From a virus, in IMG/VR virus record IMGVR_UViG_3300046449_000280, positions 1 to 33,141 of that record: a DNA stretch of 33,141 nucleotides. One strand, written 5' to 3'. The notes under the pieces are model-generated. The model worked only from the letters and a program-made list of their open reading frames with translations, was not told where the DNA came from and did no database searches. Positions 23,477 through 29,992 of this stretch are shown piece after piece. The translations under genes were made by a program, and so were the position numbers. The stretch's first letter is position 1; every line of letters begins with the position of its first letter.

Positions 23477-24390
23477 ATCGAAATCCCCGCGGCTTCGCAG
23501 TCGCGGCGCGTGACCAAATCGACGGCCCGTGCCTGCTGGAACGTCACATGGCCCGCTTTGACCAACGCCACGGCCAAGCTGTGTGGGATCGCCTTGCAAA
23601 GATATTGCTTACCGGACTTGATCGCCTCTATCGCCGCCTCTGCCTCAGATTTGCCCGCGATATCCTGCGCCGCCTGCAAACGGCTATCCAACGATGCAAC
23701 CTCTTCGGCTGTGACCGCCGTCCAACGTTTCTCCCCCAACCACGTCTCAGCCGAGGCGACGTACATCCGATCATTGCCCAGCTGCTGCACGCCGTAGACG
23801 CGGGCCGCATCGATCAGCGCTCGCGCCGCGACCCCAGTGGCCAAAGCCCTCTCGAAAGCGCGCTTTGCCGTGTTCTCGGATTTCAACTTTGGAAAGGCTG
23901 CTTTGAATTCCTCAAAATCATCCAAATCCGATTCTTGATTGGAAGGCGGATTTTCCGCCGCACTTAGTTCTTTGATGGTTCTATGACTGTTCGGGTGAAC
24001 TGGGGTTCGGGGTAATCCGTCATTTTGTTCGGGGTTTATGTCACAGTGTTCGGGGTTTTCGCCCCCAATACCCTGAACAGAGTTCGGTGTACGGCGTTCG
24101 GGGTTGTTGTGCTTAAGATGTTCACCAATACCATTTGTGGTAATTTGGTAGGCGTTGGTTTTTTTGTATCCGCCCCCAACTTTGACCAAAATCAAGCCTG
24201 ATTCCACCAGTTTTGCGATACACTTTTGAGCCCCACGTTCAGTCATTGCGGCCTTGCGGGCGATGGTCGAAATAGACGGCCAAGCATAGCCTTTTTCATC
24301 CGCATTATCTGCGATTGCGAGAAGGCAAAGTAGGTCGCCGCCCTTACATGGGGGCGCACGCCACACAGATGTTAGAACATCAAGGCTCAT
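23473..24390 (-). CDS. Winged-helix replication initiator-like protein
   Basis: 305 residues. The N-terminal 85 residues form a winged helix: GGDLLCLLAIADNADEKGYA, then WPSISTIARKAAMTERGAQK, then CIAKLVESGLILVKVGGGYK. This is the arrangement of phage replication proteins of the helix-turn-helix/DnaD-like kind. Residues 85-150 are low-complexity and Asn/Pro-rich. The C-terminal half is helical with no helicase motif. It is the second gene of the replication operon, so it most likely binds the phage origin and recruits host helicase. The origin itself was not identified (it often lies within such genes, in the low-complexity stretch). Confidence 0.7.
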   Translation of the reverse strand: MSLDVLTSVWRAPPCKGGDLLCLLAIADNADEKGYAWPSISTIARKAAMTERGAQKCIAKLVESGLILVKVGGGYKKTNAYQITTNGIGEHLKHNNPERRTPNSVQGIGGENPEHCDINPEQNDGLPRTPVHPNSHRTIKELSAAENPPSNQESDLDDFEEFKAAFPKLKSENTAKRAFERALATGVAARALIDAARVYGVQQLGNDRMYVASAETWLGEKRWTAVTAEEVASLDSRLQAAQDIAGKSEAEAAIEAIKSGKQYLCKAIPHSLAVALVKAGHVTFQQARAVDLVTRRDCEAAGISI

Positions 24391-24632
24391 AGATCACCCC
24401 GCATATTCCGGTGCGCCGCGTGCAATTGAGTGGTCAATCCCTCTGCCTGCTCAATCCCCGCAAGGGCCGCAGCTGTGGTAAATGTAAACGCCGTTGTGGT
24501 GTCACTGCTGTCCGTAAGGCCCGCAGCCTCAGCGATAAGGCCCAGTGCAACCATAGCGCCGCGCAGGTGGTCCAGAACCAGATCAAGGTCGTCTGTGATG
24601 GAATTTAGATGTGAGGTATCGTTCGCTGACAT
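24387..24632 (-). CDS. Unrecognised 81-residue acidic protein, first gene after the antisense-RNA-like leader
   Basis: ATG 24632 (MSANDTSHLNSITDDLDLVL) gives an 81-residue helical, acidic protein with an Ala/Thr-rich centre. GGAG (minus, around 24642) lies upstream. The frame stays open upstream for more than 300 codons, but that part is mostly antisense to the BRCT gene. The leader part alone (from MTRRTRNG at about 24826) resembles the Icd/Ash-like reading frames that overlap P1/P4-type immunity RNA. The ATGA overlap with the replication gene shows that it belongs to that operon. In P1 the equivalent early gene follows c4. Confidence 0.6.
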   Translation of the reverse strand: MSANDTSHLNSITDDLDLVLDHLRGAMVALGLIAEAAGLTDSSDTTTAFTFTTAAALAGIEQAEGLTTQLHAAHRNMRGDL

Positions 24633-24645
24633 GAGCGGTCTCCTA

Positions 24646-24853
24646 GGTTCAAATGAACCCGACCTCACACGATGCCAATCATGTTGGGTGGTCGGGCTAA
24701 CAACGAGTTGGCATACCGTTGAACCCAAGGGAAGACGGCGCTCCGAAGAGCCACGCTGCGCCCGACCATAGTTTCCAGACGTGCTGGAATGCAAAACGCC
24801 GCATCCATTTCTGGTGCGGCGCGTCATGCGCCCTGAATTCAACGGAATGCCAA
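24646..24853 (-). ncRNA. c4/P4-CI-like antisense RNA immunity leader with two-copy targets
   Basis: Minus-strand order: a1 TTGGCATTCCGTTGAA (24853-24838), b1 GGTCGGGC (24767-24760), antisense a' TTCAACGGTATGCCAA (24723-24708), b' GCCCGACC (24697-24690), a2 TTGGCAT (24678-24672), b2 GGTCGGG (24664-24658), and TTGAACC (24652-24646), complementary to the start of a'. a' pairs with a1 at 15 of 16 positions and with a2 at 7 of 7; b' pairs with b1 over 8 and b2 over 7. So one antisense core can pair with either flank. This is the seqA-seqB-seqC design of phage P4 and the c4 design of P1/P7, which block early genes by an RNA processed from the leader. A UUCG-capped hairpin (24740-24751) separates b1 and a'. 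The RNA ends are unknown. Confidence 0.65.
24793..24821 (-). terminator. Premature terminator-like hairpin in the immunity leader
   Basis: On the minus strand CGCCGCA and TGCGGCG form a 7-bp stem with an 11-base loop, followed by TTTT. It lies between the a1 and b1 segments, so it could attenuate transcription before the replication genes. P4 immunity acts by premature termination in the leader. Only four T, so termination is probably conditional. Confidence 0.45.
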
Positions 24854-24882
24854 TCCCGACGACAGTTTTTTGCTGCCGCGGG

Positions 24883-24911
24883 TTGACGCTACCCAAATGA
24901 GGCGCTGAAAT
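24883..24911 (+). promoter_or_regulatory. Probable promoter of the BRCT gene
   Basis: TTGACG (24883-24888) and TGAAAT (24906-24911) with a 17-base spacer lie 28 bases upstream of the BRCT gene's ATG, with GAGGAA (24928-24933) as its ribosome site. The -10 is weak. It is divergent from the leftward replication leader. Confidence 0.4.
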
Positions 24912-24939
24912 CAAGAAATTAGATAATGAGGAATTTGAA

Positions 24940-27043: not shown

Positions 27044-27055
27044 GCCCTCCTTGAT

Positions 27056-27067
27056 GGACTTTTGTCC
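27056..27067. promoter_or_regulatory. Operator 1 of the repressor-cro region
   Basis: GGACTTTTGTCC, a perfect GGAC-N4-GTCC palindrome (flanked by T and A to TGGAC...GTCCA), lies between the cro ribosome site and the cro -35. Identical cores recur at 27081, 29135 and 29163, which makes this a convincing repressor/Cro site. Confidence 0.8.
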
Positions 27068-27073
27068 ACTTGC

Positions 27074-27079
27074 TGTCAA
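27074..27079 (-). promoter_or_regulatory. -35 element of the leftward cro promoter
   Basis: The minus strand carries TTGACA between the two operators, upstream of cro. The matching -10 would lie over operator 1 and is poorly conserved (around CATCAA). Binding of repressor to operator 1 would directly cover it. Confidence 0.5.
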
Positions 27080-27080
27080 T

Positions 27081-27092
27081 GGACTTTTGTCC
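27081..27092. promoter_or_regulatory. Operator 2 of the repressor-cro region
   Basis: A second GGACTTTTGTCC, 25 bases centre-to-centre from the first, lies on the repressor side. About 20 bases downstream is TAGATA (27114-27119), a candidate -10 for the repressor promoter, so this operator could control both promoters. Confidence 0.8.
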
Positions 27093-27123
27093 GCTACCCA
27101 CAAAAGGGGTTGTTAGATATAAA

Positions 27124-27768
27124 ATGCCCATGACACATACCTTCAGATCATCACTTTTGAGTGCCATTGAGCGTGAACAAATCACCATTGCAGAAGTTGC
27201 GCGCCGATCAGGTGTTTCACAAGATCAACTGAACAAACTAAGACAGCGTGAAAGCGCTAAAACCAACGTGGACGACGCCCACAAGATCGCTAAATCTTTC
27301 GGGAAAACCCTTGATGACTTCCTTGAGGGGAACCTTGAACCTGCAAATCCAACAATATCCGTCGCGGCGCGCGTAGGCGCTGGGGCAAAAGTTCAAATGT
27401 CTGACCCATACGCAAAGGGCGACGGCCTGTACCATGTCGTCTGCCCGCCACAATTGAGCCCTCATGGCATTGTCGCGGTTGAGGTCGAAGGCAACTCTAT
27501 GGAACCGGCTTACGAGCAAGGCGATGTGCTGTTCTACACCCGCGACACCGTTGGCGTGCCCAGTGACGCCATAGGGCGCAGATGTGTGGTCGAGGACGCA
27601 GACGGCATGGTCTGGGTTAAACTCCTGCGCCGCCGCGATGATCAGCCAGAATGCCTGTTTGATCTCATATCATTCCACACAGACAGCCCACCCATGTACG
27701 ACACGGCCATAAAATGGGCTGCCCCCATCACGATGCACCTTGGTCGGGACTTGGTGGTGAAGATTTGA
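27124..27768 (+). CDS. cI: CI/LexA-type phage repressor with S24 autoproteolysis domain
   Basis: 214 residues from ATG 27124 (a second ATG lies two codons later). The N-terminal HTH (about 9-46) includes IAEVARRSGVSQDQLNKLRQ. A linker holds the Ala-Gly cleavage site at about residues 86-87 (RVGAGAKV). The C-terminal S24 domain has the serine at about 125 (GNSMEPAYEQGD) and the lysine at about 166 (VWVKLLRR). Such repressors bind paired operators as dimers, and cleave themselves upon RecA activation. The candidate -10 (27114-27119) is so close to the start that the transcript may be nearly leaderless, like lambda cI from its maintenance promoter. No clear ribosome site is seen. The cleavage and regulation are inferred from family. 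Confidence 0.9.
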   Translation: MPMTHTFRSSLLSAIEREQITIAEVARRSGVSQDQLNKLRQRESAKTNVDDAHKIAKSFGKTLDDFLEGNLEPANPTISVAARVGAGAKVQMSDPYAKGDGLYHVVCPPQLSPHGIVAVEVEGNSMEPAYEQGDVLFYTRDTVGVPSDAIGRRCVVEDADGMVWVKLLRRRDDQPECLFDLISFHTDSPPMYDTAIKWAAPITMHLGRDLVVKI

Positions 27769-29126: not shown

Positions 29127-29133
29127 ATTATTA

Positions 29134-29147
29134 TGGACTTTTGTCCA
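29134..29147. promoter_or_regulatory. Operator 3, second immunity region
   Basis: TGGACTTTTGTCCA, a 14-base perfect palindrome with the same core as the two operators between repressor and cro. It follows a rightward TTGACA (29120-29125) and adjoins the HD gene promoter. Confidence 0.8.
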
Positions 29148-29155
29148 CTAATTGA

Positions 29156-29184
29156 TTGACGTGGACTTTTGTCCACATTACGGT
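29156..29184 (+). promoter_or_regulatory. Rightward early promoter of the accessory operon
   Basis: TTGACG (29156-29161) and TACGGT (29179-29184) with 17-base spacing. Operator 4 occupies the spacer, so bound repressor would block RNA polymerase directly. Confidence 0.55.
29161..29176. promoter_or_regulatory. Operator 4, second immunity region
   Basis: GTGGACTTTTGTCCAC, a 16-base perfect palindrome, 28 bases centre-to-centre from operator 3. It is the best-conserved of the four sites and overlaps the accessory operon promoter. Confidence 0.85.
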
Positions 29185-29917: not shown

Positions 29918-29992
29918 CTGCGCGTAGCTCAGCGGTAGAGCGGGGCACTCATAATGCTTTGGTCGCGGGTTCGATCCCCGCCGCGCAGTCCA
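29918..29992 (+). tRNA. tRNA with CAT anticodon (elongator Met or Ile2)
   Basis: A complete cloverleaf: acceptor CTGCGCG/CGCGCAG, D-arm GCTC-AGCGGTA-GAGC, anticodon stem GGGCA/TGCTT (two G-T pairs) with loop CTCATAA, T-arm GCGGG-TTCGATC-CCCGC, T discriminator and encoded CCA. The paired C1-G72 and a stem without the three G-C pairs rule out an initiator. CAT can be Met, or Ile2 if C34 is lysidinylated by host TilS. It lies within the rightward early operon. Possible uses are decoding AUA/AUG at high demand, or replacing host tRNA cut by defence nucleases. Confidence 0.9.

Follow-up and report, generated by a model that had tools for sequence, protein, structure and literature searches.

The question raised by this locus is whether the leader ahead of the replication genes of a phage encodes an antisense-RNA immunity module of the P4/P1 type, as had been proposed from the sequence alone. 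The DNA analysed, here called the window, is the whole 33-kb IMG/VR virus contig IMGVR_UViG_3300046449_000280 (33,141 nucleotides). It carries terminase, portal, capsid, tape-measure and tail-fibre genes and looks like a complete tailed phage equipped with structural genes of its own. The relatives of the BRCT-domain protein, which is encoded divergently to the leader, and a GapR domain in a second protein suggest an alphaproteobacterial host. Relatives of the BRCT-domain protein with 45-65% identity were present in about 38 alphaproteobacterial genomes.

The features of the locus are listed in Table 1. The 81-aa ORF and the replication initiator gene overlap by four bases. The 360-aa protein with FtsK gamma and GapR domains adjoins the replication initiator and lacks the FtsK motor; it belongs to PHROG 4212 and has full-length relatives in several viral contigs. 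Towards the right-hand side of the contig lies a tRNA gene (29918-29989, plus strand, Rfam 64.7 bits), which may encode a phage tRNA or indicate a site of integration.

Table 1. Features of the replication leader and of the surrounding genes, in window coordinates (GA, curated Rfam cutoff)
Feature	Position	Strand	Evidence or remark
Promoter-like TTGATT-17-TAGCGT, ahead of a1	24886-24914	minus	consensus match only
c4-a1b1 (RF03163) match	24839-24892	minus	end to end; 32.4 bits, below GA 46.7
a1 target	24838-24853	minus	core TTGGCAT 24853-24847; 15/16 with 24708-24723
b1 target	about 24831-24845	minus	12 Watson-Crick and 3 G-U pairs with 24716-24730
Terminator-like hairpin, then TTTTG	24792-24822	minus	RNA fold
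C4 antisense RNA (RF01695)	24684-24773	minus	54.7 bits, GA 45; model positions 1-87 of 87
Basal stem of C4, 5' strand	24760-24768	minus	C4 model alignment
UUCG-capped hairpin of C4	24740-24751	minus	C4 model alignment
Canonical b', loop of second C4 hairpin	24719-24729	minus	pairs with b1 and Shine-Dalgarno
Canonical a', ATGCCAA	24708-24714	minus	7/7 with a1, 7/7 with a2
c', basal stem of C4, 3' strand	24690-24698	minus	pairs with 5' strand and with c2
a2 target, TTGGCAT	24672-24678	minus	7/7 with a' core 24708-24714
c2, third target element, GGTCGGGTT	24656-24664	minus	8 Watson-Crick and 1 G-U of 9 with c'
b2 target over Shine-Dalgarno AGGAG (24644-24640)	24640-24652	minus	9 Watson-Crick and 2 G-U of 11 with b'
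81-aa ORF	24387-24632	minus	ATG at 24632; family search without match
Replication initiation protein, 305 aa	23473-24390	minus	PHROG 270 (E 6e-30), HTH_36
FtsK gamma and GapR protein, 360 aa	22123-23208	minus	PF09397, residues 147-202; PF10073, residues 287-358
BRCT-domain protein, 203 aa	24940-25551	plus	PHROG 3989; divergent to C4 leader
CI-like repressor	27070-27768	plus	PHROG 4 transcriptional repressor, E 4e-16
Two pairs of 17-bp near-palindrome ATGGACTTTTGTCCACT	27054-27095 and 29133-29177		beside CI-like gene and about 2 kb away

The C4 RNA and its targets

In a search of the whole window with the Rfam models, the C4 antisense RNA model RF01695 was matched over its full length and above its curated cutoff (E = 4.4e-8). 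The same model recovered the C4/CI RNAs of P1, P7, P4 and N15, which bears out the proposed P4/P1-type module: it is a member of the C4 family, a kind of element already known and well described. A match to the Glutamine-II riboswitch model (15.4 bits, GA 33) was dismissed as chance. The sequence GGU where the basal stem starts (24767-24765) fits the GGW motif at which RNase P cuts C4 from a longer RNA (PMC5320573). On the transcript the elements follow each other in the order promoter-like sequence, a1, b1, terminator-like hairpin, C4, a2, c2, b2 with the Shine-Dalgarno sequence, and ATG of the 81-aa ORF, which would be the first gene controlled by C4.

The segment names used here were fixed by comparison with the C4 RNAs of P1, P7, P4 and N15. 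All complementary segments listed in the sequence-only reading are present on the minus strand, as is its UUCG-capped hairpin (24751-24740), but the comparison assigned some of them to other roles. The segment 24690-24697, which had been named b', does pair 8/8 with 24760-24767; it is, however, the 3' strand of the C4 basal stem and is therefore termed c'. The candidate upstream b target, 24760-24767, was ruled out as it is the 5' strand of this stem; the true b1 follows a1. Likewise, the 7-base match said to enclose the downstream set exists, and is actually the canonical b'/b2 pairing between 24719-24729 and 24642-24652. In C4 RNAs, the specificity comes from a', and b' covers part of the ribosome-binding site (PMC5320573). 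In the window, b2 (24652-24642) overlaps the AGGAG ahead of the ATG. A palindrome at 24646 (GGTTCAAATGAACC) was considered as an operator; a second site within two mismatches was not found, and it is read as b2 sequence.

Upstream of C4, the 15/16 pairing between 24708-24723 and 24838-24853 was confirmed, and the complementarity of this flank to C4 exceeded that in all 1000 dinucleotide shuffles. The c4-a1b1 model did not reach its cutoff, yet the a1 and b1 complementarity is present. The isrK model (RF01394) also aligned end to end below its cutoff (24879-24792; 40.2 bits, GA 50), and the end of this isrK-like match is the terminator-like hairpin, which had been predicted and was found at 24822-24792 on the minus strand. 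A stricter promoter and terminator scanner detected neither element at the predicted sites; it missed the terminator because the hairpin loop is longer than it allows. The proposed promoter comes from a less strict pattern common to relatives; this pattern precedes C4 in 15 of 53 loci, as compared to a mean of 1.1 in shuffled upstream sequences. Downstream of C4, the 7/7 pairing of 24708-24714 with 24672-24678 held as well. Since 57 of 1000 shuffles gave downstream matches as good as those in the window, these matches alone are unremarkable in a single sequence, and the proof rests on the Rfam match and on the relatives.

Covariation and a third pairing

The relatives comprised, together with the window, 53 C4 loci: 17 from alphaproteobacterial genomes, two from viral contigs, those of P1, P7, P4 and N15, and 29 from across the phylum. 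For each locus, the pairing of a', b' and c' with the flanks of that locus was compared with their pairing with the flanks of every other locus in 20,000 permutations, and the analysis was repeated with a divergent subset of 40 loci whose similarity was below 70%. For a' and b', upstream as well as downstream, none of the 20,000 permutations was as good as the pairing with the own flanks. In the divergent loci, z reached 12.3 downstream and 12.4 upstream for a', and 14.9 and 10.0, respectively, for b', and a coding-region control gave no signal. The compensatory changes that had been suggested as a check thus exist on both sides of C4.

The c' segment revealed a further partner. The sequence-only reading had paired 24690-24697 with 24657-24664 downstream, and these segments do pair (7 Watson-Crick and 1 G-U of 8), but the partner is c2 and not b2. 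Covariation of c' with the downstream leader was pronounced (z 10.9 in all loci and 9.6 in the 40 divergent loci; 0 of 20,000 permutations), and the upstream flank (z -0.4) and coding sequence (z 0.3) gave no signal. Permutation tests may overstate significance with related sequences; this is argued against here because the upstream and coding controls were negative and the divergent subset was still positive. In 42 of 43 loci c2 was flanked by a2 and b2, at a median of 5 nt past a2, and a c'-c2 helix of at least 7 pairs was possible in 39 of 53 leaders versus 8 of 53 coding controls. P4 (GCGATAGC) and N15 (GTGGTAGC) contain a perfect 8-nt c2, and weaker versions are present in P1 and P7. The P1 record annotates a1, b1, a2 and b2, the last beside the icd start codon, and carries no annotation of c2. 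No description of c2 was found in the literature searched, which did not extend to the original P1, P7 and P4 papers. By its sequence, c2 is a conserved third target element through much of the C4 family, with a putative function.

The c'-c2 pairing competes with the fold of C4 itself because c' sits inside the C4 stem. In cis, a'-a2 and c'-c2 cross each other in the order typical of an H-type pseudoknot. The pairing probably stabilises either the complex with the repressed target or an inactive fold in which the long mRNA pairs with itself. As the partner of c2 is one strand of the C4 basal stem, we tentatively consider that C4 systems in general, among them those of P4 and N15, may use c2 in one of two ways: C4 could unfold its basal stem in order to hold the target; alternatively, the long mRNA could choose between C4 and a pseudoknotted, self-repressed leader with a'-a2 and c'-c2. 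If true, an undescribed checkpoint would lie between the synthesis of the antisense RNA and that of the mRNA. The c'-c2 pairing also offers a cheap and specific mutational handle on C4 target recognition in the classical phages, and c2 is the part of the locus most worth an experiment.

Proposed mechanism

The window very probably carries a C4-family antisense-RNA immunity module that is encoded on the minus strand and acts on the replication operon. RNA-based immunity on replication is the likely role because the window has the GGU, the terminator-like hairpin, a b2 on the Shine-Dalgarno sequence and a replication gene downstream. Transcription would start from the promoter at about 24914-24886, and the leader transcript would either stop at the terminator-like hairpin, giving a short a1b1 RNA, or read through into C4 and the replication operon. 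Cleavage of the read-through RNA by RNase P at GGU 24767 would help to release C4. Its a' and b' would then pair with a1b1 on nascent leaders and favour termination ahead of the operon. In P4, pairing of the CI RNA with seqA and seqC causes transcription to end early, before the replication genes are reached (PMC4825925). On mRNAs that escape, C4 would pair with a2b2 and cover the Shine-Dalgarno sequence of the 81-aa ORF, and the block of this ORF would silence the replication initiator by translational coupling. The predicted outcome is that phage replication is off in the lysogen, including that of an incoming phage of the same specificity.

The same elements may also be arranged as a switch in cis. 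A true C4 member could work mainly like IsrK, with the leader itself holding the long mRNA inactive through pairing of C4 with a2, c2 and b2, and with the short a1b1 RNA activating it in trans. IsrK of Gifsy-1 behaves in this way by experiment (PMC4825925), the isrK model covers the leader end to end, if below threshold, and the competition of c'-c2 with the C4 fold and the pseudoknot order of a'-a2 and c'-c2 would suit such a switch. The conserved RNase P site and the C4 fold, on the other hand, point to a separately released C4, and published work describes the RNAs of P1, P7 and P4 as trans-acting, which makes a mainly cis-acting role unlikely.

Distribution and comparison with known systems

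BLASTN of the region against a phage collection gave no match, and the search for close relatives through the replication initiator yielded none in viral contigs. Viral relatives obtained through the FtsK-gamma/GapR protein share the initiator, and a C4 was found in none of them; the phages L003, L010 and L012 contain the same replication module without C4. The C4 module is therefore probably exchanged between phages. The idea that the BRCT gene travels with C4 was rejected, as four viral BRCT loci and seven genomes contained no C4.

The two viral contigs among the 53 loci were retrieved with a degenerate pattern of the a1/a'/a2 layout; in one (L078) C4 lies ahead of an antirepressor-like gene, and in the other (L079) it is followed by a replication initiator of PHROG 270. 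In two alphaproteobacterial loci (L127 and L128) C4 leads to a primase of PHROG 1139. The next genes at alphaproteobacterial C4 loci are often antirepressors (AntA, Bro-N, Rha, P22_AR_N), and the window would be another case of C4 guarding replication and not an antirepressor. In Rfam model searches, C4 exceeded the cutoff in at least 4 of 385 Alphaproteobacteria genomes versus at least 60 of 398 Pseudomonadota genomes, and in two alphaproteobacterial families in at least 4 of 40 and at least 4 of 395 genomes; these counts are lower bounds because the large searches scored few candidates per genome with strict filters. By sequence, P1/P4-type RNA immunity modules thus occur in alphaproteobacterial phages and are rarer there than phylum-wide. 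Among the orders with C4 that PMC5320573 lists from a 2010 survey, alphaproteobacteria are absent. The locus gains some interest from its replication target and from a host group in which C4 is rarer.

Seven Pseudomonadota genomes (G931, G1025, G1070, G1091, G944, G899 and G1083) each contain at least ten C4 RNAs, ten being the number of candidates scored per genome, and the a' and b' loops differ in such genomes where they were read. One contig (C28 of genome G745) carries two C4 modules (L152 and L158) 20 kb apart in opposite orientation, with similar Bro-N-type genes downstream and different a' loops (TTCGCCAA and TCTGTCAA).

Since the replication module also occurs in phages that lack C4, C4 is dispensable, and two of the three Rfam models remained below threshold in the window, as might be expected of a decayed or inactive relic travelling with the replication genes. 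Such a relic is nevertheless very improbable: C4 is full-length and above threshold, all target segments are intact and complementary, and pairings of 15/16 and 11/11 would not persist in a relic. Chance complementarity or an unrelated structured leader, to which the short downstream matches taken alone would conform, is refuted by the Rfam E-value, the upstream complementarity beyond 1000 shuffles and the covariation across the family.

The C4 module of the window invites comparison with four known systems. IsrK of Gifsy-1 (RF01394) resembles the window in its short terminated leader, its read-through into a processed RNA and its coupled small ORF (PMC4825925); the window scores below the curated isrK cutoff, and the target gene differs. 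The C4 RNAs of P1 and P7 share with the window the fold, the full-length match, the a' and b' loops, a1b1 upstream, a2b2 downstream and a b2 at the ribosome-binding site, and in P1, too, a small ORF (icd) is coupled to the gene that follows it (ant). Their targets are icd and the antirepressor, whereas that of the window would be the 81-aa ORF and the replication initiator, and the specificity of the window should differ from that of P1 and P7 because the a' and b' sequences differ.

The four 17-bp palindromes are probably CI operators. With the CI-like gene and these operator-like sequences present, it is plausible that the CI-like repressor provides a second immunity layer, by analogy with the two layers of P1 and N15. 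Unlike Oc4 of P1, no CI operator was found near the C4 promoter within three mismatches. The immA region of N15, in which C4 is likewise combined with a protein repressor and its operators, is a precedent for two layers; its C4 precedes small ORFs and an antirepressor, that of the window a replication initiator. The P4 CI RNA is matched by the same Rfam model, guards replication genes, has a c2 and is separated from seqA (a1) by a terminator-like hairpin, as in the window. P4, however, is a satellite with a primase of another family, whereas the window is a complete-looking tailed phage.
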